NCBI GenBank assembly: GCA_947589455.1
Contig: CANQCD010000012.1
Coordinates: 1-32,110 of the forward strand
Direction of reading: 5' to 3'
DNA length: 32,110 nucleotides
Origin: an uncultured Lachnospiraceae bacterium
Lineage (GTDB): Bacteria > Bacillota > Clostridia > Lachnospirales > Lachnospiraceae
The stretch's first letter is position 1; each line of letters starts with the position of its first letter. Below, piece by piece: positions 8,996 to 24,149 of this stretch. The translations under genes and the position numbers were made by a program. The notes under the pieces are model-generated. The model saw only the letters and a list, made by a program, of their open reading frames with translations. It searched no databases and was not told where the DNA came from.

Positions 8996-10474
<1,479 letters not shown>

Positions 10475-10524
10475 TCGTTTTTCTGAAAAAATACAATAAT
10501 ATGTTGCTATTTTTAGATAGGATC

Positions 10525-10670
10525 AGGGTGTCAAAAGGGTGAGTTTTCAAATGCACACCGTCATATTGCACAAAAATCGACGCTCAGTAATTGCTTTTAG
10601 AGTGTTTTGATAACTGTTTTTTTGGCAAAATTGCACAAATGCTTTTTACAGAACATCCTTTTGACACCCT
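10525..10670. mobile_element. MITE-like 146-bp element with 14-bp perfect terminal inverted repeats
   Basis: AGGGTGTCAAAAGG (10525-10538) and its exact complement CCTTTTGACACCCT (10657-10670) bound a 146-bp AT-rich segment with no coding capacity. Inside, TTGCACAAA occurs twice in direct orientation. Imperfect matching continues a few bases outward (GAT/ATC). No certain target-site duplication is seen. It could be a miniature transposable element, an IS remnant or a long RNA hairpin. The remaining intergenic sequence 10349-10995 contains only the gdhA promoter, this element and the direct repeats listed next. Confidence 0.5.
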
Positions 10671-10789
10671 AATCTATATAGATGATTGCGAAATGATTTA
10701 AAATCGTGTATCACGCTTTAGCAAGATGAACAAAAAATAGAAACAGGCATTGCATTCGCCGGTACTTCGCCGGTGTGTAGCGGCATTCA

Positions 10790-10873
10790 AAAACCGCATT
10801 GATGTGACGATTGCTTTTTGGGAAATAGGGAAATTCAAAATATGGTTAGATTGAAAACCGCATTGATGTGACG
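10790..10873 (+). repeat. Two copies of a 20-bp direct repeat
   Basis: AAAACCGCATTGATGTGACG occurs at 10790-10809 and 10854-10873, with 44 bp between. Just upstream (10757-10776) TTCGCCGGT is also repeated in tandem. There are only two copies and the spacer is not CRISPR-like in context; probably debris of a decayed mobile element. Confidence 0.6.
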
Positions 10874-10995
10874 TTTTTCACAATGTGAACAATGGTGGCG
10901 TGTTGCAAACATATGTGAAAAATGCTAAAATAAAAGTAACATGAAATTTTTTGATTTGGATGTCGTTATCAACATGTATTTTAGTGTAGGATAGA

Positions 10996-11205
10996 TTGAA
11001 AGAGGAGGTCGTTGATATTATGATGGCATTATTTGATGAAGAGGTTATACTTGCCAACTATGAAAGAGAAATCAGGGCGGAAGGAAGAGCCGAGGGAAGA
11101 GTAGCAATTTTGTGGGAAGATGGCAGAACCGTTGAAGAGATTGCCGCAAGGCTTAGCATGTCAGAGGAAGAAGTCGAAAGGATAATTATGTCCTTAGACG
11201 AGTAA
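10996..11205 (+). pseudogene. C-terminal remnant of an Rpn-like (PD-(D/E)XK) nuclease/transposase protein
   Basis: A 61-69 aa reading frame with strongly acidic and basic helical sequence: EEVVDIMMALFDEEVILANY, then the low-complexity turn RAEGRAEGR and a small helix-turn-helix-like tail (TVEEIAARLSMSEEEVERII). This organisation is typical of the C-terminal end of clostridial PD-(D/E)XK 'transposase' (Rpn) family proteins, where REEGREEG-type repeats link to a short DNA-binding tail. The catalytic nuclease domain is absent and a TAG stands in frame at 10987, so I read it as a truncated remnant. An ATG at 11020 behind AGAGGAGG could still express 61 residues. The identification is by pattern, not by alignment. 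Confidence 0.5.
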
Positions 11206-11421
11206 AAAGGAAAGGGCTTGCCTCCGGGGGGCTTTTTACAGTATTTTAAGAACAGACATCGGCTGCGCTTCAATTATACAAAACCATCTATTTTTACAAT
11301 AAAATTTACACTAAAAAAACAGAAGAAAGCACCAAAATACTTCATCTAAAATGGACCGGTGTTCACACTTTGTTTACAATTAAGACATAATTCGTACATA
11401 AACCGCTCCTATAATAGCATT

Positions 11422-11514
11422 CAGAAAGTGAAAACTTTCTACTCCCACCCTATTATACGCTGGATAACGTAAGTTATCCGACAGAAAGAGCCTTCCCAGG
11501 CTCTTTCTGTTTTT
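11422..11514 (+). ncRNA. Candidate small RNA with C-rich single-stranded seed and strong terminator
   Basis: TATAAT (11410-11415) could place a start near 11422. The RNA would have a 5' hairpin AGAAAGT-GAAA-ACTTTCT (11423-11440), a single-stranded C-rich stretch ACTCCCACCC (11441-11450), a second hairpin GGATAAC-GTAA-GTTATCC (11462-11479) and a 12-bp terminator ACAGAAAGAGCC/GGCTCTTTCTGT (11481-11510) ending in TTTTT. C-rich unpaired seeds able to pair with GGAGG-type ribosome binding sites are known in several Gram-positive sRNAs. The -35 is poor. TATAATAG can alternatively pair with CTATTATA (11450-11457) if transcription starts further upstream. The rest of the gene-free stretch 11206-11774 shows only terminator-like hairpins and a candidate recombinase promoter. 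Confidence 0.5.
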
Positions 11515-11533
11515 CGGAAATAATTTCAATGCC

Positions 11534-11562
11534 AGAGAGAGCCTGCCCTGCCGGGCTTTTTT
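11534..11562 (+). terminator. Second terminator-like hairpin upstream of the recombinase
   Basis: GCCC-TGCC-GGGC (11545-11556), or the longer wobble stem starting AGAGAGCC, is followed by TTTTTT. With the terminator ending at 11514 it makes a tandem insulator before the recombinase promoter region. Confidence 0.5.
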
Positions 11563-11594
11563 CTTCTTTTCACATCTCCCGAAATCAGGTACAC

Positions 11595-11600
11595 TATAAT
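11595..11600 (+). promoter_or_regulatory. Possible -10 of the recombinase gene
   Basis: A perfect TATAAT 175 bp upstream of the recombinase start. The best -35 candidate, TTCACA (11569-11574), is 20 bp away, which is too long for a good promoter, so this is tentative. Confidence 0.35.
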
Positions 11601-11774
11601 CAGAAGAAAGGTTGAAAAAATGTAACGGAAGTGCCGTTTTTTTTACAAAGCGAATTGTTTCATTTGGAATAAGGAATAAAATACCTGTTCCAGGCAACCA
11701 TTTTACTAAAACAGGGATTTGGCGTCTGGCCGACTGGGACGGCGCGGAATCCATCTGAAAAAAAGGAGGAGCTT

Positions 11775-12635
11775 ATGGACTATCTGATTACGGAAGAAGG
11801 ATTATTAGCATTTGAGCAGCAGTTGCACAGGGAGGAAAAGGGGAAACTTACGGTGGAAAAATATATGCGCGATCTTAGGAAACTGAAAGACTTTGCAGCT
11901 GGCAGAAGTCTGGACAAGGAGCTTGTCATCGAATACAAGCAGGAGCTAAAAGACTGTGGAAAATATAAGACAAAGAGTATCAATTCCTATCTGGTTGCGG
12001 CAAACCGTTTCTTTGATTTCATGGGATGGCATGAGCTGCGGGTAAAGACATATAAAGTGCAGAAAGAGACGTTTCAGCCGGAGAACAGAAACTTCACCAG
12101 ATGCGATTACCAGAAGCTGGTCACGGCGGCGGAAAAAGCCGGAAAATGGCGTCTGGCGCTTTTGATCCAGACAATCTGTGCCGTCGGCCTGCGCGTCAGC
12201 GAGCTGCAGATGGTCACGGTGGACGTTGTAAGAAAAGGCGCCGCGCAGATTTGCTGCAAGGGAAAAGAACGGAAAGTTCTATTGCCGCGTTCTCTGCAAA
12301 AACAGCTGCTGCGTTATATAAAGAAGAAAAACATACGCCAGGGAGTTGTATTCCGGACTTCCAGCGGCCGACCGCTGGATCGGAGCAACATCTGGAAAGA
12401 GATGAAAGCGCTGTGCGAGCGCGCCAAGGTAGAGCGGGACAAAGTATTTCCGCACAATCTGAGGCATTTATTTGCAAAAACATTCTATGAAAAAAATAAG
12501 GATATTGGAAAACTGGCGGACATTCTCGGCCACAGCAGTATTGAGACGACGAGGCTATATATCAGGACGCCCAGCGCCGAATATCAGAGACAATTGGATA
12601 AGATGAATCTAGTCTTATTTTGTCGTACCACATAA
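11775..12635 (+). CDS. Tyrosine recombinase, probable promoter invertase
   Basis: This 286-aa protein is a XerC/D-like tyrosine recombinase. The N-terminal SAM-like core-binding domain covers residues about 8-95 (KLTVEKYMRDLRKLKDF). The catalytic domain has all expected residues: R140 (AVGLRVSEL), the beta-hairpin Lys in CKGKERKVLLP (K162/K164), H227 and R230 (PHNLRHLFA), H253 (LGHSSIETT) and the nucleophile Y262 (RLYIR). The ATG follows AAGGAGGA (11763-11770). No genes for an excisionase or phage proteins are near. Its last three codons and stop lie inside the left 29-bp inverted repeat of the adjacent 12624-12833 element. By this linkage I infer that it inverts that element; the family as such also includes integrases and Xer proteins. 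Confidence 0.9.
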   Translation: MDYLITEEGLLAFEQQLHREEKGKLTVEKYMRDLRKLKDFAAGRSLDKELVIEYKQELKDCGKYKTKSINSYLVAANRFFDFMGWHELRVKTYKVQKETFQPENRNFTRCDYQKLVTAAEKAGKWRLALLIQTICAVGLRVSELQMVTVDVVRKGAAQICCKGKERKVLLPRSLQKQLLRYIKKKNIRQGVVFRTSSGRPLDRSNIWKEMKALCERAKVERDKVFPHNLRHLFAKTFYEKNKDIGKLADILGHSSIETTRLYIRTPSAEYQRQLDKMNLVLFCRTT

Positions 12636-12833
12636 TAACAATTATGTGGTATCCCTTCCAGGCTATCAGCCACATTATAGCATGATATCGCAATAATTTC
12701 AAACAAATTTTTCATTTAATCATTATTTTTGATCGTATTTTTTCTCTACATATCGCCGCACCTTGCTATATGGAGAAGATCAGACGTTGTAGACAGGCTC
12801 TGCCATACCACATAATTGTTATTATGTGGTACG
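12624..12833. repeat. Invertible promoter element (inverton) with 29-bp inverted repeats
   Basis: A 29-bp sequence at 12624-12652 is exactly complementary to 12805-12833. Each site is itself a dyad: 11-bp arms TACCACATAAT/ATTATGTGGTA around a 4-bp core, which is AACA on the left and TGTT on the right. This is the expected architecture of tyrosine recombinase crossover sites in inverted orientation, with the asymmetric core setting polarity. The enclosed 152 bp (12653-12804) are AT-rich, contain no gene and carry one strong sigma-A promoter. The recombinase gene is directly adjacent, and large surface-protein genes lie downstream. All of this is visible in the sequence; that inversion actually occurs is inferred. 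Confidence 0.85.
12674..12702 (-). promoter_or_regulatory. Sigma-A promoter inside the invertible segment, currently facing left
   Basis: On the minus strand, TTGAAA (12702-12697), a 17-bp spacer and a perfect TATAAT (12679-12674). As sequenced it reads through the left repeat into the 3' end of the recombinase on the antisense strand. After inversion the hexamers would map to about 12755-12760 and 12778-12783 on the plus strand, with a start near 12790 reading toward the gene at 13446. No comparable plus-strand promoter was found in the segment. Confidence 0.8.
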
Positions 12834-13445
12834 GGATTGACAGCTTATGGGAATGACAGCATTCCTTCCAGGGTATCATTTGCAGAAAATAAGGCAAATA
12901 GGAACGTCTTATGGGAAAATCCCGGGTTCGCAGCGTACCCCATGCGGCCCGGGTGCATTCCGAAAGTCCGAGGGAGGGATCTTTCTCTCTGCTTTTTTAG
13001 GCGTATCCCCTTTTGCCTCTTTTCTGTATGGTTTAAAGCCGCCGGAGGCGGCATAAGCCGGCGCACGCAAAATACGCCGCAGAAGATGTGGCAGTGCATA
13101 TACAGGCTGCCATAGAAAAATAGGAGATAAGTGCGGCCAATCAGATCATAGCGTATTGGTTCACAAAACAAAGTCGTTCGCTTCACTTTGCAATTTGCAG
13201 AGAACTAGAAGGTTCCAAAGAGCCGGAGGGACGCTAAAAAGGAACAGTCTCCCTGAAACGAAAAGTTCCAAGAGCCCAAAGCTCTCGAAACCCGAAGCTT
13301 CCCGGAACCCGAAGGTTCTCTGCAGCATTACTGATCGCTCTGATGGCAGATGGGACATCGCATTTGCGTTTCCCATCGTCCTGCCTGCGCAAACGCTCCA
13401 GAATGTAGAAATAACAGGAAAATTGACAGAGAATGGAGGAATGGT
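12834..13445 (+). other. 0.6-kb non-coding, structured leader between inverton and first surface gene
   Basis: No convincing gene is present on either strand. Several stable hairpins are: GGAATG/CATTCC (12850-12865); CCCGGG...CCCGGG with inner CGCA/TGCG (12921-12953); GCCGCC-GGA-GGCGGC (13038-13052); and, nearer the gene, AGAGC/GCTCT and GAACC-CGAA-GGTTC. GCAGAGAAC (about 13197) recurs inverted as GTTCTCTGC (about 13315), enclosing a 127-nt domain. None has a clear T-run. If the upstream promoter is ON, all this becomes 5' untranslated RNA. Confidence 0.55.
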
Positions 13446-16034
13446 ATGAAGATTGACAGATTAAGGAAAAAGTGTCTGGCATGGGCGCTCAGCCTGATCA
13501 TGGCATTTACCTGCCTGCCGGGGGCAGTTCCGGCGGAGGCGGCAAAGACAGAGAAAGTGCAGATTTTAAAAACAACGACATACGCCCAGTTTGATGATGA
13601 GACGGGGGAACTGACTATTTCCGGAGAGGGAGAAATGGGTGTAATTGCCGTGAGCTCTCGGCCCTGGAAGGAAGGCGGCACGCTGGGAGAAACCTGTACG
13701 CCAGGCGCAATAAAGAGCATTACCGTAGAAGAAGGCGTGACACAGGTAAGTAGCTTTTCGGATATGACCAATCTGACAAAAGTAACCCTTGCAGAGTCGG
13801 TGACAAAAATCCAAGGCCAGACATTTAAAAACGACACAAGCCCCGATCTGGTCATTGATATCAAGGGAGCCGTTACATCGTGGAATAAACCTTCTGCGTT
13901 TCAGGGTGTAACGGGAAAGATTATCGTACATGACCGGAATACCAAAGAGGCAATAGAAAAAAACAGTCTGCTAACTCCTCCGGCAACGATCGAGCTGCAG
14001 GAAGATGTGGAGGCGTTAAAGGCAGCGCTTGCAAAGCTGGTCAGCACAAAGAGGAATGAATACGCCGACAAAGAGAATGATTACAGTCCGGATACCTGGA
14101 AGGCCTTAAACGACGCGCTGGATGCAGCGGATGCATTGAGCAAAAAGAGCGATCCAGAACCGACGGCACAGGAGATTGTCGCGGCGTCAAAGGCGATCAC
14201 TGACGCCGAGACAGCTCTGGTAACTATGAGGACATGGCTGAATGGGCAGAGGACGGCATGGTGTGCGACAGGGTCATCGATATTAAAGACTGGAGAAAAG
14301 AGTAAGTTTACCGACGGTTCCATTGCGGCGCTTCAGAAGGCGTATGACGCGGCGATGGCGGTGCAACAAGTTACCGATCCGGTAGAAGAGATTCGGTCTA
14401 AAGTGGATGCACTGATCGCCGCCGGCACGATTGACGAAACCGGTCTTGCGGAGACAGGGTTAAAATACCATGTGTTAAATAGCGACGAGGAATGGCTAAG
14501 ACGAGACGAACTTACCAAAGAAAATCTGGTTGCAGAAAGATACACAGAGGAGTCTTATGCGGAGTACGATACGGCATGGAAGGCGTTATATGCCACTAGA
14601 ACTAGCAGCGTATCCCGCCAGCAGTTAGGCAAGCTCTGTGATGCAGTGGAAGCGGCGATCGAGAAGCTGGAAAGTGTGGAGATCGTCCTGAATGCGGAAG
14701 GCTACCAGGAGGCAAAGAAAGCAGTCAAGGCAGTGTTAGAAGCCAAGGATTCGCCATATACCAAAAACTCCCTGAAAGCGTTACAGCAATCCTATGATTT
14801 TCAGGTGAAAGGTGTGGAAGATGAATCGGGTGAGATTGGAAGCGGTACGATTAAAGATTTGCTCCAGAGCAGGCTGGACCAGGTAGTGGATACGTTAAGG
14901 AATCTGATCGATCCAGACAATGCTGCGTATGTCCTTGTAAAGAAAGGCGATTTGTCTAAGTTAAAGGAGTTAGTAGGGTCGGCTGGAGAGCTTGACGGAT
15001 CGGAATACACAGAGAGTTCCTGGAAAGATGTTGAGAGTGCGGTCTCTGTGGCAGAAGCGCTCATTGCAGATCCGGACAACGCCGGAGAACCGGATATTGC
15101 GGCTGCTGAGCAGGCGCTTACAGAGGCCATGGGATATCTGGAATACCGCCCGGCGGATTACAGCAAGGTGGAACAGCTGTGCTACGAGACTTATCCGGAG
15201 CTTGACTTAAGCCTCTATACGGAAGAGTCGGTACAGGCGTTAGAAGCTGCGATTGCCGCCGTAGACTGGGATAAAAACTTTACCGAGCAGGACGTGGTAG
15301 ACGGATATGCTGAGGCGATTGAAAAAGCGATTGGAGCGCTTGTCCTGAAAGAGGCTACGTCGACGGAAGAACCGACCGAAGAGCCGACGGCAAGCCCATC
15401 GGCAGATCCGGGGAATGCACCGACGGATGTGCCGACTGGAAATCCGGCGGCAAGTCCGACGGGAGAGCCCGTGACAAGTCCGACTGCAGATCCGGGGAGC
15501 GCACCGACGGATGTGCCGACTGGAAATCCGGCGGCAAGTCCGACGGGAGAGCCTGTGACAAGCCCGACTGCAGATCCGGCGGCAAGTCCGACGGGAGAGC
15601 CCGTGACAAGTCCGACGATAGATCTGGGGAGCGCACCGACTAACGCGCCGGCCGGAGAGCCGACAGTCGTTCCGACAGAGACGCCGTCCGCTCAGGCGAC
15701 AAAGAAGCCAGACAAAGGCGCTTCCCAAAAGAAAAAAGTCAGCGTGAAAAAGGCGGCGTTAAAGAAAGTGGCCTCCAAAACGAAAAAGACGCTTACCATC
15801 CAGTGGAAGAAACTTTCCGGCGTGACCGGCTATCAGATTGTCATCGGCCTTGACAAGAAGATGAAAAAGGGCAAAAAGACCGTGACGATCAAAAAGGCAA
15901 AGACAGCGAAGACGACCGTGAAGAAGCTAAAAAGCAAGAAAAAATATTTCGTCAAGATTCGCGCCTATAAGACGGTAAGCGGCAAAAAACATTACGGAAG
16001 CTGGAGCGCCGTAAAATCAGTGAAAGTAAAATAA
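13446..16034 (+). CDS. Secreted LRR / helical-repeat surface protein with Lys-rich Fn3-like C-terminus (862 aa)
   Basis: The ATG at 13446 follows GGAGG (13435-13439) and begins a signal peptide (KIDRLRKKCLAW, hydrophobic core, cleavage near AEAA). Residues about 37-180 resemble BspA-type leucine-rich repeats (LTISGEGEMGVI; VTQVSSFSDMTNLTKVTLAESVTKI). Residues about 185-635 are predicted helical repeats resembling FIVAR/albumin-binding-like three-helix modules (YSPDTWKALNDALDAADAL; YTEESYAEYDTAWKALYAT; YTKNSLKALQQSYDF). A Pro/Thr/Ser linker (about 637-757) with 28-residue repeats follows. Residues about 763-862 form a Lys-rich fibronectin-III-like domain ending WSAVKSVKVK, closely matching the end of the next protein. 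No LPxTG or membrane anchor. It is the first gene downstream of the invertible promoter. Role: probable adhesin or glycan-binding protein; ligand unknown. Confidence 0.8.
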   Translation: MKIDRLRKKCLAWALSLIMAFTCLPGAVPAEAAKTEKVQILKTTTYAQFDDETGELTISGEGEMGVIAVSSRPWKEGGTLGETCTPGAIKSITVEEGVTQVSSFSDMTNLTKVTLAESVTKIQGQTFKNDTSPDLVIDIKGAVTSWNKPSAFQGVTGKIIVHDRNTKEAIEKNSLLTPPATIELQEDVEALKAALAKLVSTKRNEYADKENDYSPDTWKALNDALDAADALSKKSDPEPTAQEIVAASKAITDAETALVTMRTWLNGQRTAWCATGSSILKTGEKSKFTDGSIAALQKAYDAAMAVQQVTDPVEEIRSKVDALIAAGTIDETGLAETGLKYHVLNSDEEWLRRDELTKENLVAERYTEESYAEYDTAWKALYATRTSSVSRQQLGKLCDAVEAAIEKLESVEIVLNAEGYQEAKKAVKAVLEAKDSPYTKNSLKALQQSYDFQVKGVEDESGEIGSGTIKDLLQSRLDQVVDTLRNLIDPDNAAYVLVKKGDLSKLKELVGSAGELDGSEYTESSWKDVESAVSVAEALIADPDNAGEPDIAAAEQALTEAMGYLEYRPADYSKVEQLCYETYPELDLSLYTEESVQALEAAIAAVDWDKNFTEQDVVDGYAEAIEKAIGALVLKEATSTEEPTEEPTASPSADPGNAPTDVPTGNPAASPTGEPVTSPTADPGSAPTDVPTGNPAASPTGEPVTSPTADPAASPTGEPVTSPTIDLGSAPTNAPAGEPTVVPTETPSAQATKKPDKGASQKKKVSVKKAALKKVASKTKKTLTIQWKKLSGVTGYQIVIGLDKKMKKGKKTVTIKKAKTAKTTVKKLKSKKKYFVKIRAYKTVSGKKHYGSWSAVKSVKVK
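15417..15616 (+). repeat. 84-bp coding tandem repeat in the Pro/Thr linker
   Basis: A unit starting GCACCGACGGATGTGCCGAC at 15417 repeats at 15501 (period 84 bp, 28 residues, nearly identical), followed by a partial third copy. High similarity suggests recent expansion and possible length variation. Confidence 0.85.
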
Positions 16035-16142
16035 AGCCGCAATAGGACGAGAAATCGTATTCACCAATTTCTCATCCGCGCTTCTGCAAGGATGAATCGC
16101 CATGATTGCGTAAGATGCAAGTATCGCGCCATTGCGTAAAAC

Positions 16143-16232
16143 GCAGAGCGAACCGCATATGCAGAGCAAATCGTATATGCAAAGCGAACCGTATATGCAA
16201 AGCGAATACGATACGCAGAGCAAATCGGCCAC
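16143..16232. repeat. 18-bp minisatellite, five units
   Basis: Five tandem 18-bp units (16143, 16161, 16179, 16197, 16215) of the type GCAAAGCGAACCGTATAT, diverged in a few positions. It lies in the gap between two surface genes and is non-coding on the plus strand. A 9-bp stem GGGACAGTT/AACTGTTCC (16294-16327, one G-U) follows, without a T-run. The gap 16035-16561 otherwise holds only the 44-bp repeats. Confidence 0.8.
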
Positions 16233-16357
16233 GGCGTGCAGGCTATGGCGGCGGGGGCAGGACCGGACGGCATAGCGCAGCGTAAGCTGCAGCGGGACAG
16301 TTGCGAAAAATGGGGTTAAACTGTTCCGGCGCGACAGGTCTGTGGCAAAAGGATGAC

Positions 16358-16545
16358 GGAGAATGGCGAAAAACAGGCAGCCGCCCTTAAAAAAGGACGG
16401 CGGAGAACAGCGTGAAACAGGCAGCCGCCCTTAAAAAAGGACGGCGGAGAACAGCGAAAAACAGACAGCCGCCCTTAAAAAAGGACGGCGGAGAATGGCG
16501 AAAAACAGGCAGCCGCCCTTATAAAAAAGAGGCGGCGGAGAATAA
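16358..16545 (+). repeat. Four tandem 44-bp units, each with a hairpin, before the GH5 gene
   Basis: Units start at 16358, 16402, 16446 and 16490 (period 44 bp; the last is 47 bp), with a partial fifth. Each contains GCCGCCCTT-AAAA-AAGGACGGC, an 8-bp stem with one mismatch, and the box GGAGAA. The array ends 17 bp before the GH5 start codon, so it forms the immediate 5' untranslated region. It is also an open frame with basic residues, but the next gene's signal peptide clearly starts at 16562. Confidence 0.85.
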
Positions 16546-16561
16546 GGAAAGGGGCTATTGT

Positions 16562-19531
16562 ATGCAGAGACCAAAACGTATACTTCTCGCCCTGCTTCTA
16601 TCCCTTGCCCTCCTCGCGGGGCTCTGGGACGGATATGTTCCGTCCCAGCCCGCGCAGGCGGCGGGGAGTTTTATTGACTTAAACCAGAAGCAGATCGTAG
16701 AAGCGATGGGGGCGGGATGGAATTTAGGGAACCAGTTAGAGGCAAATACGAAAGGCACGCCGAAAGAGGATGCGTGGAGCGGCGTAAAAGTGACACAGGA
16801 GCTGATCCGCAAAGTCAAGACGTCAGGTTTTAACTCCATCCGGATTCCGGTGTCCTGGCTGTCCACGATCGGAGACGAGCCGGAATACACGATTGACGAG
16901 ACGTGGTTAAGCCGCGTAGAAGAAGTCGTCGGCTGGGCGGTCAAGTACAATCTCTACGTTGTGATCAACCTCCACGGCGACGGCTATTCTACCGTAGAAG
17001 GCGGATGGCTTCTGCCAGAGCGGGCGGATCAGACGCAGATCAAGGAGAAATTTGCCGCTGTCTGGAAGCAGATTGCCGCGCGGTTCAAGGACTACGACCA
17101 TCATCTGATCTTTGAATCCATGAACGAGATTGGCGCAGAGTTAAAAGCAGACGCCCAGATCAAGGCGGCATATGAAAACATCAATGACTACAACCAGATT
17201 TTTGTCGATGCGGTCAGAAGTTCCGGCGGCAATAACGCAAAACGCTGGCTCCTGATTCCGGGGTTTAATACAAACATCGACTATACAGCGGGAGATTATG
17301 GATTCCAGATACCGGAGGATTCCGGGCTTAGCGCAGACGTCCCGGAAGGCGAAAAGCGCATTATGGTGTCTGTGCACTACTATTCGCCGTGGGAGTTCTG
17401 CGGACAGGAAGACTATAACCAGACCCAGTGGGGCGACGACGCCGATCCGGAAAAGAGTGTCGGATATGGCAGCGAGAGCGACATGGAGGCCGCTTTTGCC
17501 AAGATGAAGGCAAAATTTGTTGACAAAGGATATCCGGTGGTGATCGGCGAGTACGGCGCGATCGACAAATCAAAGCGTGAGGACAGCGGCGTCGGCAAGG
17601 CGGGAGAGCCCGACCCGGAAAATCCGGGATTCCGGGAAAACTTCGTGTGGAAACTGTGCGCCACCGCCAAACAAAACAGCTGCGTGCCGATGTATTGGGA
17701 CAATGGCTGGAACGGAGATTTCGGCTATGCCATCTTTGCAAGGGGATCGCAGCAGGACAGACAGTTTGGCTACAGGACGGCGGGGGAAGTCACCCAGCCT
17801 GGCATCCTGAAGGCGATCATGAGCTGTTATGGGACAAAGGCAGGTACGGCAAAAGCGATCGACATCCAGCAAGAGCGTTTAACCCTTGACTTAAACAGCG
17901 CTCCGCAGCAGCTGACCGCCACGCTTGACCCAGCCGATTCCGACGACGCCATTGTTTGGTCCAGCACCGATACCAGCGTGGCAGGCGTCAACTACAAAGG
18001 CAAAGTCTCCGTCCGCGGGCGGGGAACCTGCCTTGTCATAGCGAGGACGCCAGGAGGCTTGGCCGACTACTGCATAGTGGAAGTCAAACCGCCTCAGACA
18101 TTCATGGCAGGGATCTATGCCCAGTCGTCCCAGTGGAGCGACTTATCCGGCGCAGATTACATAGAGATCGCCGAGAACGGTACAAAAGAGGCGGAAGTCA
18201 CCCTGCAGGCGTCAAAGGAATTATTTTCGCCAATCCGCACGCTGTTTATCAAAGATGTTGCCGTGCAGAACGGGGCTTCTAACAGGTCGAACCTAAGCAG
18301 CGCGACATTTGTCGTCAAGTCCCTGAAATTCAACGACACCGAGATGGAGCTTGACAAGACGGAATATCCCTATAACAGGGAGAGTACGAACGGCGCGCTT
18401 GACATCTGCCTGGTCAATGCGTGGGATGCAGGCACGCATCACATCAAAGGCATGACCAAGGCAAGCCAGGGATACTCCTTCCCCGCCGATTCCTATGTGG
18501 ACGGCGTCAACACCATCTCCGTCACGCTGGAGATCAAAGACGCCGTCTTAGGTTTAGAGCAGGAAGAAGAAGTGACGGAGGCGGAGAGCCTCTCCTTTGC
18601 GGAAGATTCCTTTACCGTGGAGGCAGGCGAGACGGCCAGCGCGCCGGCGGTAATCGTTCCGTCCGAAGCAACGGAAAAGGTGATGTGGTTCAGTGAGGAC
18701 GAGGCGGTTGCGTCTGTCAGTGAATATGGCGCAGTGACCGGCGTCAAGGCAGGCAAGACAACGATCCACGCAGTCACAGCGTCCGGCAGGCACGCTTCCC
18801 TGTCCGTCACTGTGGTGAGAGACCCTTTGGCTTCCGGAGAGCCGGAACTGCCGCCAGAGCCGAGCCTGCCGCCGTTAGAGACAGACGTGCCAGGTGACGG
18901 AGAGACGGCGGCGCCGGGAGACAGTGAGCCTGCCGAGCCGACCGATGCGCCGGGAGACAGTGAGACTGCCGAGCCGACCGATCTACCGGGAGCAAATGGG
19001 ACGGCGGCGCCGGGAGACAGTGAGACTGCCGCGCCGACCGATGTGCCGGGAGGCAGTGGGACGGCGGCGCCGACTGAAGTACCGGGAGCAAATGGGACGG
19101 CGGCGCCAGGAACAAATGAGACAGCCGCGCCGGGAGGCAGTCAGACAGCCGCACCGACCGATGCGCCGGGAGACGGCGGGACAGCCACGCCGACACAGAA
19201 GCCGGGATCAGGAAACTCCGGTGCGGGCAAAAAAGTCACCGTCAAGAAAGCCACGATCCGTAAAGTAGCGTCAAAAAAGAAAAAGACGCTTACCATACAG
19301 TGGAAGAAAGTCTCCGGCGCAAGCGGCTATCAGGTAAAAGCCGGCACGGACAAAAAAGCGTCAAAAGGCAAAAAGACAGTTACTGTCAAGAAAGCCGCGG
19401 TCGTAAAGACTACCATAAAGAAGCTAAAGAGCGGCAAAAGATATTATGCCAGAGTCCGCGCCTATAAGACCGTAAAGGGCAAAAAATATTACGGGAGCTG
19501 GAGCGCGGCAAAATCAGCAAAAGTAAAATAG
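16562..19531 (+). CDS. Secreted GH5 glucanase (cellulase-like) with Big_2 domains and Lys-rich Fn3-like C-terminus (989 aa)
   Basis: The start at 16562 (MQRPKRILLALLL) gives a clean signal peptide cleaved near AQA/AG (residue 33); GGAAAGGGG is the ribosome binding site. Residues about 36-425 are a glycoside hydrolase family 5 domain: GAGWNLGNQLEA, SIRIPVSW, VVINLHGD (H138), acid/base E189 in FESMNEIG, VHYYSPW and nucleophile E330 in PVVIGEYGAIDK. These are the expected catalytic residues for cleaving beta-1,4-glucans or related beta-glycans with retention. A Big_2 domain (about 432-509), a possible carbohydrate-binding beta-sandwich (about 510-660), another Big_2 (about 665-750), a Pro/Thr/Gly linker (about 754-888) and the Lys-rich Fn3-like module (about 889-989) follow. 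No sortase motif. Probably in the same operon as 13446 and 19731. Exact substrate and subfamily are not determined. Confidence 0.92.
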   Translation: MQRPKRILLALLLSLALLAGLWDGYVPSQPAQAAGSFIDLNQKQIVEAMGAGWNLGNQLEANTKGTPKEDAWSGVKVTQELIRKVKTSGFNSIRIPVSWLSTIGDEPEYTIDETWLSRVEEVVGWAVKYNLYVVINLHGDGYSTVEGGWLLPERADQTQIKEKFAAVWKQIAARFKDYDHHLIFESMNEIGAELKADAQIKAAYENINDYNQIFVDAVRSSGGNNAKRWLLIPGFNTNIDYTAGDYGFQIPEDSGLSADVPEGEKRIMVSVHYYSPWEFCGQEDYNQTQWGDDADPEKSVGYGSESDMEAAFAKMKAKFVDKGYPVVIGEYGAIDKSKREDSGVGKAGEPDPENPGFRENFVWKLCATAKQNSCVPMYWDNGWNGDFGYAIFARGSQQDRQFGYRTAGEVTQPGILKAIMSCYGTKAGTAKAIDIQQERLTLDLNSAPQQLTATLDPADSDDAIVWSSTDTSVAGVNYKGKVSVRGRGTCLVIARTPGGLADYCIVEVKPPQTFMAGIYAQSSQWSDLSGADYIEIAENGTKEAEVTLQASKELFSPIRTLFIKDVAVQNGASNRSNLSSATFVVKSLKFNDTEMELDKTEYPYNRESTNGALDICLVNAWDAGTHHIKGMTKASQGYSFPADSYVDGVNTISVTLEIKDAVLGLEQEEEVTEAESLSFAEDSFTVEAGETASAPAVIVPSEATEKVMWFSEDEAVASVSEYGAVTGVKAGKTTIHAVTASGRHASLSVTVVRDPLASGEPELPPEPSLPPLETDVPGDGETAAPGDSEPAEPTDAPGDSETAEPTDLPGANGTAAPGDSETAAPTDVPGGSGTAAPTEVPGANGTAAPGTNETAAPGGSQTAAPTDAPGDGGTATPTQKPGSGNSGAGKKVTVKKATIRKVASKKKKTLTIQWKKVSGASGYQVKAGTDKKASKGKKTVTVKKAAVVKTTIKKLKSGKRYYARVRAYKTVKGKKYYGSWSAAKSAKVK

Positions 19532-19730
19532 GGGGAGGAATCTCCAGACCAGGCAGGACAGGAACAGACCCTGCGGCCGGGGAATGCAAAACAAAAGCCG
19601 GTTCGGAGCAGATTCCGGCCGGCTGTCAGACGACAAAAAATGTGAGATTTGTCAGGAGAAAAGAAAAAGTTTGTGAAATGCAAATTGATCTCCTGGCAAA
19701 AATCACTTCATAACAGGAGGATGTTTTGGA

Positions 19731-22700
19731 ATGACAAAGAAAAGATTAGCGAGGTCACGCAAGGGGATTGCCGTTACGCTGGGGCTGTCTTTGCTGGCAG
19801 GGAACCTGCCTGTGGGGACGGCGGCCGCTTTCGCAGCTCCTGCAGAGATCGACGCCCCGGACATGGGAAGACAAACAGAGCCGGAAGCGACCGTTGCCCC
19901 GATCCGGAGCGTCAACTTAAACCAAAAAACAGAAGACGGCGGATACCAGATTGGCGGGATTACCGATCCATACGGGCTGGAGGAAGATCCTACAAAAGTA
20001 GGCGAATCCTACAAAAAGGAATGGTCTGATGGGAAGGGCAGTTACGTCTGGGCCGGCAGTTACTGGCAGGAGGATACGGACGAGGACAGCGACGCCGACA
20101 CAGAGGATGAGAAACAGCCGGTGCGCTGGCGCGTGTTAGACGCCGATACAACAGAATACAGCGGCGAGGACGGCGGACATACCATGCTCTTGTTCAGTGA
20201 GAAGGCGCTAGACGCCATGAAATATAGTGAACAGGTTGGCGAAGACAAACAACACCGCGGAAATAAATGGGCGGATTCCAATATCCGCAAATGGGTCAAC
20301 AGCGAAAAGGCGGACGGAGAGCCCACCTGGGAAAATAAAGAGGCCTATACGCAGGACGGACTCTTTGACTCCCTGTTTGGCGCGCAGGAAAAAAAGATCG
20401 TAGTAAAAAGCGTCAGGGAAATCGATAATACACAGAAACAGGACGGAGTGGCATATGGAAAAGATGCCAGCGGCTTATCGCAGGAAGGGCGGGAAGATTA
20501 CTTCTTTTTCCCGGCAGTGTGGGAGTTAAATTCCACGAAGTACGGTTTCTGCAACAGGGAAGATGCGACGCGGTATCAGGATATCACGTGTCTGAATTTT
20601 GAGGCGACGTCATTTGCGAAACGGGTCGCTGTCGAACAGCTTTCTGTGAAGGAACGTGATTTTCCAATGATCTGGACGCGCACAAATGGAGATGAATCAA
20701 CGAAAGCAAGCGGCGTTGTAGGCGATTGGGAGGTATATATCGCCGGAATGGACGCTCCTTCCCATTGCATATCCGGGATCAATGGCGATCAGGCAGCCGG
20801 CGTCGCTCCGATGTTTAATATGGATTTGTCAAAGGTATTCTTCGCGCGCGCCGCAGGCGAGGACGGAAGCGGCTATACGCCGGGCGCCGCATTTGCGCTG
20901 ACGGAGGATAAGAGCGATGAGAAGAACTGGAGCGTATGCGTAGATACCGGGACGGCGTTTACCGCCTCACGGAATGGGTCGGGCAACGTAAAGGCCGGCG
21001 GCGACATAAAGGTCAGTTTAAATGCGCCGCAAGAGGGTGATTGGGATCAGATTTCCGCTATGCTTACCGATGCAGACGGCATTGTCCGGGCGTATGGAAA
21101 GGTTGCCGATATTGAGGGCGGAGAGGTGAAGGCAGGAGGAGAGACTGTCTCCGAAGTGACGGTGACAGTGCCGGAAGAGCTGCCTGACAGCGCTTACACC
21201 TTAAAAGTATTCGCTGAGAAAAACGGCGAGGACGGAAGCCTGACCAGCTATGCCAGCCAGGCGGCAGATATTGCCATTGCCGTGGCAGAGCCAAATGTCA
21301 ACGTAGTAAAAGTTACGCCGGCAAAACACACCGTAAAGGCCGCTGGATCAGGGGATGAGACGCAGAAGGTAGAAGAGGGACAGGACTTTGCTGACATTAC
21401 CTATACGGCGGCGGAAGGGTGGTATTTCCCAGAAGATTATACCACAGGCATTGATACTGCAGATTCCGGCATAACAGTAAAAAGAGTAAGCAGCACAGAG
21501 ATCACTGTGTCAGGGACGCCGGAAGCCTCCGTGACGATCCTCCTGCCAAAGCTGTCATGGGAGGGCGCCGGCGCAAGAGGCGTCAACTGGAACAGCCAGG
21601 CGGAGGACGGCAGTTTCCGGATCGCCGGGATCATGGATCCGCAGGAGGCGGAAGCAGCCGATTCAGAATGGGCGGACGGCAAAGGAAATTATGTCAATTT
21701 CGGCAGCTACCAGCAGGACAGCGAGGAAGTGAAAACGCCTGTCAGATGGCGCGTGCTGGACGCCGATACGACAGACTATACCAGCGATGGAAGCCATACG
21801 ATGCTGTTAATGTCTGACAAGATGATCTGGGCGATGGAGGCGACGCCGTGGAATCCGACGATAAGATATCCGGAGGGATATCAGACAGAAGGGATCCGCG
21901 CATGGCTCAACAGCGCCAAAACAACAACGGCGGGCTCTGTCGTACCAAAATGGTATGACGCTGTTCCGGCGTGCCAGGAACATTATATCGGCGCCGGATT
22001 CTTAGACGATGCGTTTAACAGCGCGCAGGCGTCGGCGATCGCCGTGTCTGTGAAAGAACCGGATACGAGAGAGGTGCCGCAGTCAGACGGATATCAATAT
22101 AACGGCGCCCGCGGCGGAAAGATTACCGTGGACGACAGCGGTCTGTCTCAGGACGGCACAGACGACCGTTTATTCCTGCTCTCCGCGGCAGAAGCATCCA
22201 ATGCGGCATATGGTTTTTATCCGGACTTTGACCAGATTGGCTCAAATAAGAGCCGGGTTCTGGAAGGGACGGCTCTGGTAGAGAATATCCAACCGTATTA
22301 CAACAAATCAAATTGGTGGTTAAGATCCAGCGACTGGACGGAAGAAGCCGAAGGAACGTTAGAGGTCTCAAGACATTTTGGATACGTGAAAGGAGACGGC
22401 GTGTTGGATGATATCTCAAGCTTTTCACCTGACACGGGCGTTGTCCCGGCGTTTAATCTGGATTTGTCCAGGGTGCTGTTTACCACAGCTAAGGATTTGG
22501 ACGATGAAAGACTCCTCCCGGTAGAACAGGTCACAGGCGGCAAGACATGGAACCTGAAGCTGTCTGCAGGGAAGGGCTTTGCAGCGGCGGCCGCAGGAGG
22601 AGACAAGGCGGCTGCGGGCGGACAGTTTGCGATTGCTGTCAAAGACTTAGGGACTGCGGATGAAGGAGTTTCCTATGACAGGATTGCAGCCGCCCTCACG

Positions 22701-24149
22701 ACAGAAGACGGCGAAGTGGTCGCCTATGGGCGGATTGCCGGAGTTGAGGACGGCAAAGTCATGGCAGGCGGCAAAGAGGCAGAGACGATTTACGCTAAGA
22801 TCCCGGCAGGGACAGACGCCGGGACATATACGCTGAAAGTCTTTGCGGAACAGGCGGAAAACGGCGGCGAGGCAGTACAGGACGCTGTGGATTATGCCAG
22901 CAACGTGGAAGAGATTCCAGTGACAGTAGTCGAGGGAGATTATACCGTGACTGTCGAGGCGGGCAAAGGAATTGCCGTAGAATATGAAGACGATCTGACA
23001 CAGACTGTCGTGGCAGGAGAAGCGCTTGCCGGCATGACTTTTTACACAGAGGAAGGCTATTATCTGCCGGAAGGCTACCAGGCAGAAGGCGCAAACGGCA
23101 TTACCGTAACAAGAGAGAGCGAGACGGAGCTGACGATATCCGGCGTGCCGACAGGCAATGCGACAATTGTCCTGCCGGACGCAGAAGTGGTGCCAGAGCC
23201 GACAGAAGAGCCGACGGAAGCGCCGCCGACGGAAGCGCCGACGACAGAAGCCCCGGCAACGGAAGCGCCGACAACAGACGTACCGACAACGGACGTCCCG
23301 GCAACGGAAGCGCCGACAACAGACGTGCCGGTAACAGACATACCGACAACAGAAGCCCCGGCAACGGACATACCGACAACGGACGCCCCGGCAACAGGAG
23401 CGCCGGCAACGGAAGCGCCGGCAACGGACATACCGACAACGGACGCCCCGGCAACAGGAGCGCCGGCAACGGAAGCGCCGGCAACAAATACGCCGGGAAC
23501 AACAGCGCCGGCAGCAGAGACGCCGCCTGCAGGAGAGCAGCAGCCATCCGCAGTACCGGATACAAAACAGCCGGAGAAAGGACAGAAGATCAAAGGAAAA
23601 GACGGCGCCTCCTATACGGTGACAAAAGCCGATGGCGGAAACAGCGCCGTGTCATACACAAAGCCGAAAAACACAGGGATCGCCAGCATAAACATCCCTG
23701 CCACGGTAACGGTAGACGGCGTGAAATATAAGGTGACGTCAATCGCAGCCAACGCCTTTAAAAACTGCAAAAAACTAAAGAAGACAGTGATTGGCAGCAA
23801 TATTTCCACAATCGGAAACGCAGCGTTTAGCGGCTGCCAGAAATTAAAGAGCCTGACGATCGGCAAAAACGTGACGGCGATCGGAGCAAAGGCATTTTAT
23901 AAATGTACGGCGCTGACAAAGGTTACGATCCCTTCTAAAGTCAAAAAGATTGGCAAACAGACATTCTTCGGCTGCAAAAAGCTGAAAAAGATTACCTTTA
24001 AGACAGCCAAATTAAAGAAGACGACCGTCGGAGCCAAAGCATTTGCCGGGATTGCAAAAAAACCTTCCGCAAAAGCGCCAAAGAAGGTAAGGAAAACATA
24101 CCAGAAGATACTCCGGGCAAAAGGCGCCAAAAAAGCGTCTGTAAAATAG
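19731..24149 (+). CDS. Large secreted protein with two DUF6273 domains and C-terminal BspA-like LRRs (1472 aa)
   Basis: The ATG follows AGGAGG (19716-19721). A signal peptide ends near AFA/AP (about residue 36). Two homologous halves, about 60-390 and 615-925, each carry a DUF6273-type domain: VRWRVLDADTT, HTMLLxSxK, IRxWxNS, a DD-LFL/YFFFP box, and VAPMFNMDLSKVFF or VPAFNLDLSRVLF. Each half is followed by Ig-like beta domains, including WYFPEDYTTG and YYLPEGYQAEG repeats. Residues about 1150-1270 are a PATEAP/PTTDVP linker; about 1320-1425 are LRR_5 (BspA-type) repeats (AFKNCKKLKKTVIGSNISTI; AFSGCQKLKSLTIGKNV). The C-terminus is very basic, ending KASVK. DUF6273 has no known biochemical function; such proteins are common in gut Firmicutes envelopes. 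It is the last gene before a strong terminator. Confidence 0.85.
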   Translation: MTKKRLARSRKGIAVTLGLSLLAGNLPVGTAAAFAAPAEIDAPDMGRQTEPEATVAPIRSVNLNQKTEDGGYQIGGITDPYGLEEDPTKVGESYKKEWSDGKGSYVWAGSYWQEDTDEDSDADTEDEKQPVRWRVLDADTTEYSGEDGGHTMLLFSEKALDAMKYSEQVGEDKQHRGNKWADSNIRKWVNSEKADGEPTWENKEAYTQDGLFDSLFGAQEKKIVVKSVREIDNTQKQDGVAYGKDASGLSQEGREDYFFFPAVWELNSTKYGFCNREDATRYQDITCLNFEATSFAKRVAVEQLSVKERDFPMIWTRTNGDESTKASGVVGDWEVYIAGMDAPSHCISGINGDQAAGVAPMFNMDLSKVFFARAAGEDGSGYTPGAAFALTEDKSDEKNWSVCVDTGTAFTASRNGSGNVKAGGDIKVSLNAPQEGDWDQISAMLTDADGIVRAYGKVADIEGGEVKAGGETVSEVTVTVPEELPDSAYTLKVFAEKNGEDGSLTSYASQAADIAIAVAEPNVNVVKVTPAKHTVKAAGSGDETQKVEEGQDFADITYTAAEGWYFPEDYTTGIDTADSGITVKRVSSTEITVSGTPEASVTILLPKLSWEGAGARGVNWNSQAEDGSFRIAGIMDPQEAEAADSEWADGKGNYVNFGSYQQDSEEVKTPVRWRVLDADTTDYTSDGSHTMLLMSDKMIWAMEATPWNPTIRYPEGYQTEGIRAWLNSAKTTTAGSVVPKWYDAVPACQEHYIGAGFLDDAFNSAQASAIAVSVKEPDTREVPQSDGYQYNGARGGKITVDDSGLSQDGTDDRLFLLSAAEASNAAYGFYPDFDQIGSNKSRVLEGTALVENIQPYYNKSNWWLRSSDWTEEAEGTLEVSRHFGYVKGDGVLDDISSFSPDTGVVPAFNLDLSRVLFTTAKDLDDERLLPVEQVTGGKTWNLKLSAGKGFAAAAAGGDKAAAGGQFAIAVKDLGTADEGVSYDRIAAALTTEDGEVVAYGRIAGVEDGKVMAGGKEAETIYAKIPAGTDAGTYTLKVFAEQAENGGEAVQDAVDYASNVEEIPVTVVEGDYTVTVEAGKGIAVEYEDDLTQTVVAGEALAGMTFYTEEGYYLPEGYQAEGANGITVTRESETELTISGVPTGNATIVLPDAEVVPEPTEEPTEAPPTEAPTTEAPATEAPTTDVPTTDVPATEAPTTDVPVTDIPTTEAPATDIPTTDAPATGAPATEAPATDIPTTDAPATGAPATEAPATNTPGTTAPAAETPPAGEQQPSAVPDTKQPEKGQKIKGKDGASYTVTKADGGNSAVSYTKPKNTGIASINIPATVTVDGVKYKVTSIAANAFKNCKKLKKTVIGSNISTIGNAAFSGCQKLKSLTIGKNVTAIGAKAFYKCTALTKVTIPSKVKKIGKQTFFGCKKLKKITFKTAKLKKTTVGAKAFAGIAKKPSAKAPKKVRKTYQKILRAKGAKKASVK
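23361..23485 (+). repeat. Perfect 60-bp tandem repeat in the PT-rich linker
   Basis: The 65 bases at 23361-23425 recur exactly at 23421-23485 (period 60 bp, 20 residues). It lies in a longer stretch of 12-bp PTxxP-type codon repeats (about 23190-23520). The identity suggests very recent duplication. Confidence 0.9.

Follow-up and report, generated by a model that had tools for sequence, protein, structure and literature searches.

The inversion of promoters by tyrosine recombinases is already known. The Mpi enzyme of Bacteroides fragilis, which acts on capsule promoters, is a serine recombinase. As outlined in part of PMC5386303, this single invertase serves at least 13 switches, for which a 10-bp core consensus is given. 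In the available text of PMC5903667, inversions among Firmicutes are placed mostly in Clostridia. The cwpV and flagellar (flgB) switches of Clostridioides difficile, which work with RecV, have their promoter outside the flipped segment, and recV is not located near cwpV (excerpts of Emerson 2009, PMC2784873, and of PMC5386303). In the sections of Jin et al. 2025 (PMC11892184) that concern inverton group 139 and invertase group 35, a tyrosine recombinase is located nearby, 32 of 33 cases come from Clostridia, and two group 139 invertons shifted their orientation over culture passages.

The locus presented here lies in a window of 32,110 nt (the whole stretch of DNA that was analysed) from an uncultured Lachnospiraceae bacterium. 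Two inverted repeats of 29 nt each, at 12624-12652 and 12805-12833, are 100% complementary and spaced by 152 nt. Read on the plus strand, each contains an internal dyad, with arms at 12626-12636 and 12641-12651 around the core AACA (12637-12640) on the left, and arms at 12806-12816 and 12821-12831 around the core TGTT (12817-12820) on the right. The cores are asymmetric and are reverse complements of each other, as inversion requires. Allowing three mismatches still gives just two occurrences of the dyad, TACCACATAAT-NNNN-ATTATGTGGTA, in the window, and none in 100 shuffles. The 152 bp between the repeats (12653-12804, with no strand assigned) form the proposed invertible segment. Its minus strand carries, at 12674-12702, a TTGAAA-17-TATAAT promoter with a TG ahead of the -10 box (-35, 12702-12697; -10, 12679-12674), which matches the consensus at 11 of 12 positions and faces the 3' end of the recombinase gene. 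Matches of at least 9/12 are not unusual there (6 observed, 3.7 expected); this promoter is the strongest and the single strong one in the segment, and an 11/12 promoter recurs at the equivalent position, facing the recombinase, in all six copies of the locus that are readable in this genome. A first-pass annotation of the window had described the perfect repeats around 152 bp, their internal dyads with an asymmetric 4-bp core, the leftward promoter and a complete tyrosine recombinase gene adjoining on the left, all of which were borne out.

That gene (11775-12635, plus strand), the proposed invertase, is a complete ORF of 286 aa with a Pfam Phage_integrase domain (2e-24) and an N-terminal SAM-like domain. 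The catalytic R, K, HxxR, H and Y were identified in it by eye, at the positions expected for the family. Against NCBIfam XerA, XerD and XerC the protein reaches 132.5, 113.4 and 104.1 bits, under the cut-offs of 220, 329.6 and 335.15, and its likeness to the NCBIfam tyrosine-type DNA invertase models is weak (19 bits, cut-offs 221-222). On these profile scores it is classed as a general Xer-like tyrosine recombinase that falls under every NCBIfam cut-off. Its stop codon (12633-12635) falls within the left inverted repeat; in four other copies in the genome (C17, C21, C28 and C181) the gene stops ahead of the repeat. For neither the recombinase nor the GH5 protein described below was a relative found among viral contigs.

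To the right of the segment lie three plus-strand genes for large secreted proteins, whose signal-like N-termini were judged by eye. The first (13446-16034, 862 aa) combines such an N-terminus with FIVAR, a PT repeat and fn3; the second (16562-19531, 989 aa) carries a GH5 cellulase-type domain, Big_2 and a weak fn3; the third (19731-24149, 1472 aa) has DUF6273, a Pro/Thr-rich stretch and BspA-type LRR_5. The start of the second gene is most likely ATG 16562 rather than GTG 16412, a small correction. A 44-nt unit repeated 4.4 times (16347-16542) separates gene 1 from this likely start. Scans with a simple sigma-70-like consensus found no promoter ahead of the first, second or third gene (12834-13500, 16000-16620 and 19480-19800, respectively), in agreement with the earlier remark that they lack an evident promoter of their own. 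The three genes are predicted to form one operon. Among the copies in the genome, the GH5 proteins of C12 (the window copy), C17 and C227 show 51-59% identity over almost their full length, and the LRR proteins of C17, C28, C181, C222 and C227 show 29-54%, three of them being truncated by contig ends. The FIVAR-type first gene distinguishes the operon of the window among the copies.

The best explanation of this locus, and in our judgement a highly probable one, is a reversible promoter switch operated by the adjacent recombinase and now OFF. The recombinase of 11775-12635 would exchange strands at both dyads and thereby flip 12653-12804. In the orientation seen, the lone strong promoter faces the 3' end of the recombinase gene and the operon would be OFF; the antisense RNA that this promoter (12674-12702) should yield across the recombinase 3' end could steady the OFF state, with a possible feedback on the switching rate. 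After a flip, transcription would run rightward, crossing first the right dyad and then the 612-nt leader, where the folded RNA lies, before it reaches the three secreted surface-protein genes.

The genome contains at least six examples of the unit of recombinase, dyad pair, promoter and leader RNA, ahead of related surface-protein genes. The assembly (G000) comprises 2.62 Mb in 228 contigs and is 87.7% complete. A search for the dyad pattern with up to two mismatches returned 13 dyads, and none with the reversed control; a protein search returned 11 recombinase matches, nine with E <= 1e-40. Six copies, with recombinase, dyad pair, promoter and near-identical arms, are readable on both sides. 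Their left cores are AACA in the window copy, ATGG in C17, ACGA in C21, AAGA in C28, AACG in C181 (where the contig holds the C-terminal half of the recombinase only) and TTGT in C227 (where one arm has one mismatch). All six left cores are thus different, while each pair is matched internally. All six copies are OFF in the assembly and its contigs cross all six switch regions unbroken, so the data of this genome give no sign of mixed orientation. DNA similarity among the copies begins near the recombinase start (11674-11773 depending on the copy; for C63 also 11556-11608) and ends by 12903. On C195 a recombinase is present and the contig stops 30 nt past the gene, which is why its switch sites are not visible. 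The C218 recombinase is more distant (53%) and has a lone dyad on the opposite side of the gene. This dyad (L030:9308, that is G000:C218:15305; core CAAT) lies upstream of the recombinase, directly preceded by a TATAAT box and followed by a possible gene start, and no partner for it was found within L030:7001-10500 at up to three arm mismatches. Recombinase pieces on C63 and C216 were left out of the locus counts.

Wider comparison covered 71 non-duplicate loci from the same genome, the genus, the family and GTDB, some of them with partial recombinases. Dropped before counting were L035, L036 and L049 (the same as L066, L072 and L079), the distant Nautiliaceae loci L052-L054, and L086-L088, which are without a recombinase of the window family. 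In G004 and G014, ACATAAT-type dyad pairs with non-matching cores are located at L086:1698 and 2205 and at L088:634 and 855; a recombinase of the window family was absent from the L086 and L088 stretches examined. The nearest named loci to that of the window belong to an uncultured Lachnospiraceae MAG. A dyad pair with matched cores is present in 34 of the 71 loci; the best-scoring promoter points towards the recombinase in 27 of these 34 and away from it in 7, with the two directions less than one point apart in L041, L072, L107 and L120.

Homologous segments are oppositely oriented, relative to the recombinase, in the pairs L039/L040, L058/L059, L065/L078, L068/L078 and L072/L074 (scores 52-146, against a maximum of 34 over 1500 shuffled comparisons), and marginally so in L068/L072 (score 47). 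L039/L040 align forward too, at 45 and thus above the null, owing to an inner inverted repeat of the segment. Both members of L058/L059 come from genome G006, and both members of L072/L074 from G021. Thirteen segment pairs align in the same orientation, including all seven alignable pairs of the window's own genome. Additionally, 25 contigs end within 500 nt after the recombinase, ten of them at or inside the left dyad (six at its end, four inside), for which a uniform model gives 2e-7, the 500-nt range being the analyst's choice. Contig ends at the left dyad are expected when both orientations exist in the sequenced population; these breaks could partly have other causes, and in L037, one of the ten dyad-ending contigs, the two visible dyads are direct rather than inverted. 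Taken as comparative sequence evidence, these data leave inversion of the segment within the family well supported. The comparison of orientation across related genomes that the first-pass annotation had suggested has thus found related loci holding the homologous segment both ways, and its reading of an OFF promoter switch run by the neighbouring tyrosine recombinase stands as the best one.

The same observations bear on whether the dyads might no longer recombine, being either static operators or leftovers of an integrated element. The one orientation shared by the six readable copies of the genome would agree with this, as would a recombinase that is Xer-like in general and below every NCBIfam cut-off. 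Yet the recombinase and matched core pairs co-occur down to about 40-50% protein identity, the segment is found both ways at related loci, and matching asymmetric cores would be needless for an operator; static dyads are therefore extremely unlikely.

Cre, Flp and lambda Int generally require a matching overlap sequence. By this rule every copy in the genome would be expected to invert on its own, even where one enzyme can bind the sites of another, and by analogy the differing cores would insulate the loci from one another. Each copy, flipping independently through its private core, would contribute to a combinatorial coat. The history of the cores was followed on a recombinase tree of 40 of the 71 loci, selected ones with more than 200 aligned residues (C181 is absent). 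The recombinases of C12, C17, C21, C28, C195 and C227 form one clade (support 98/97), which suggests that cores diverged after duplication. ATGG is also found in G027 and AAGA in L034, both outside that clade, and some cores may therefore predate the recombinase copies seen today. Eight recombinase copies of G006 and G025 form another clade (99/95), with the core GATT in seven of the eight.

Several copies per genome with a common core are seen among loci L058-L078 of G006, G025 and G021: the cores are AAAA twice and GATT four times in G006, GATT three times and GTTT once in G025, and AAAA twice in G021, several of them known from the left dyad alone, where the contig ends. Such common cores would make inter-locus recombination possible there, and because of this reuse the three genomes may serve as natural controls. 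Judged from tree and cores together, the copies appear to have multiplied with mostly one core in the G006/G025 lineage, and with differing cores in the lineage of the window.

The presumed untranslated leader (612 nt, 12834-13445, plus strand) lies outside the invertible segment and holds a conserved structured RNA at 12884-13026 (plus strand). It consists of a closing stem P1, a hairpin P2 with the loop GUACCCCAUG (GTACCCC from 12935) and a hairpin P3 that is terminator-like at 12970-12989. The leaders of C12, C17, C28, C181, C227 and C21 joined with C222 measure about 612, 1073, 611, 708, 1288 and 548 nt, and all six finish with a good ribosome-binding site. The C21 contig stops within the RNA element and has an exact 77-base overlap with C222, and hence the element of C222 was assigned to the C21 copy. 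In the consensus, P1, P2 and P3 meet in a three-way junction. Individual folds of all six copies show the closing stem and a hairpin exposing GUACCCCRUG, a loop that is invariant in all six; C28 and C181 have an extra small hairpin and C17 deviates in the P3 part.

Folding-energy z-scores against shuffles range from -2.4 to -4.8 in the six copies. A second computation gave -3.1 to -6.4 for the sense and -0.6 to -4.2 for the antisense strand, the sense value of the window copy (-3.3) being no better than its antisense value (-3.4). A covariance model built from five copies scores all six at 89-151 bits, including 100 for the sixth (C222). In the alignment, which was model-fitted and so biased in favour of the model, 88% of cells are paired. 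Pairs changed on both sides number 12, compared with 6.0 in shuffles (0 of 500 as high), and the covariation score is 0.359, compared with no more than 0.186 for controls in which the partners were shifted by up to three columns; these controls were at most 61% paired, yet reached up to 10 pairs changed on both sides.

The covariance model found no convincing copies in 27 other genomes of the genus (best E 0.06) and none in 396 other genomes of the family at E <= 0.01 with stricter filters. Candidate copies in L047 (23.4 bits) and L065 (22.2) were discarded as noise, the antisense of a true copy scoring 22.7. Searched with Rfam 15 covariance models, the element matched nothing up to E = 1 in all six copies (window 10400-16500; L010, L012, L009, L029 and L103), on which ground a known riboswitch was rejected. 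Tandem arrays lie downstream of the leader RNA and ahead of the first gene in three of the six leaders, each with a different unit (L009:7378-8000, 66 nt x 9.4; L029:7653-8548, 64 nt x 14; L012:1017-1348, 76 nt x 4.4); none was found in C28 or C222, and the window has a weak one only, at 13275-13318.

This RNA may have been conserved merely through duplication of the cassette, without a function of its own. Its presence in one of 28 genomes of the genus and one of 397 of the family would fit such an origin, the neighbouring DNA is homologous as well, and the window copy folds equally well in antisense when compared with shuffles. On the other hand, sequence divergence among the copies is such that blastn with the window as query stops by 12903 in the leader, and all six still fold with the closing stem and a hairpin of the same, invariant loop, with compensatory changes. 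We regard conservation by duplication alone as unlikely, although it retains some plausibility. If the RNA does have a role, it would act on the ON transcript, with stability, antitermination or ligand control as candidate routes. Antitermination dependent on LoaP was not adopted: no LoaP match was found in this genome, nor did any of 21 genomes yield one over the cut-off. This is weak evidence, for the search also missed the ordinary NusG in an assembly that is 87.7% complete. Nor was P3 adopted as a general attenuator and the main mechanism. Three of the six copies (C28, C181 and that of the window) have a run of at least six T after P3, and terminator scans differ, one across the six leaders keeping P3 of C181 alone and another flagging P3 of the window.

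The leader also bears on the possibility of a switch acting after initiation, as at the cwpV and flagellar loci of C. difficile, in which transcription would start at an outside promoter and the segment would flip a leader terminator or a Rho-sensitive sequence. Switches of this kind are known in Clostridia (portions of PMC2784873 and PMC5386303), and the long leader with its structured RNA and terminator-like P3 would suit one. Against it, flipping would leave the leader RNA and P3 unchanged, as both are located beyond the repeats. Any transcription arriving from the left would have to originate from the recombinase gene alone; no rightward promoter close to the segment was found in 11500-12652. 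Above all, the sole strong promoter is inside the flipped segment in 6/6 readable copies, on which ground a cwpV-like switch was rejected as very unlikely. The inversion of the promoter itself remains the preferred reading.

What appears new here is a genome with at least six switches, each with its own recombinase beside it and with cores that are matched within a pair but specific to a copy. The structured RNA, tied to the predicted ON transcript, is likewise undescribed and provides a small non-coding RNA family for study. Such loci make it testable how bacteria multiply switches without scrambling the chromosome. A tentative picture, which we put forward with less than even confidence, is that the lineage has assembled a bank of surface-protein switches, each independently addressable: copies of a portable cassette of recombinase, switch and leader RNA would have been placed ahead of related operons, selection would then have provided every copy with a private 4-bp crossover that keeps near-identical recombinases from joining one locus to another, and a new class of leader RNA would provide a second check on the ON transcript only.

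A literature search by title and the start of the abstract, mostly of open papers, returned none that describes loci of this kind with LRR/GH5 targets, and none on private cores or the leader RNA of the window. Inverton group 139 is possibly the broad family of this switch, as compared by coordinates and description rather than by repeat motif. The coordinates given in part of PMC11892184 imply, for Clostridium sp. D5, 26-bp repeats 205 bp apart, sizes like those of the window locus, and for Intestinimonas 14-bp repeats; the portion of that text on group 139 mentions neither private cores nor a leader RNA nor LRR/GH5 operons. Judging by excerpts of PMC2784873 and PMC5386303, the C. difficile cwpV and flgB loci resemble this one in having a tyrosine recombinase, short inverted repeats and surface traits, and flgB combines a flip switch and a leader RNA (the c-di-GMP riboswitch Cd1) in one 5' UTR. 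In the window, by contrast, the promoter is inside the segment and the RNA downstream of the switch, and the repeat of the flagellar switch, AAGTTRCTATWTTACAAAAAA, is unlike the window dyad. The fim system of E. coli (FimB/FimE) likewise has its promoter on the invertible segment and its recombinases nearby (part of PMC2784873), but it is a single locus, and the window recombinase is only weakly similar to the DNA invertase models of NCBIfam. With the Mpi-controlled capsule promoters of B. fragilis the genome described here has in common many switches, surface products and the prospect of a combinatorial coat. In contrast to the Mpi system, every copy here has a recombinase beside it and the six cores all differ, with enzyme and site paired by position.
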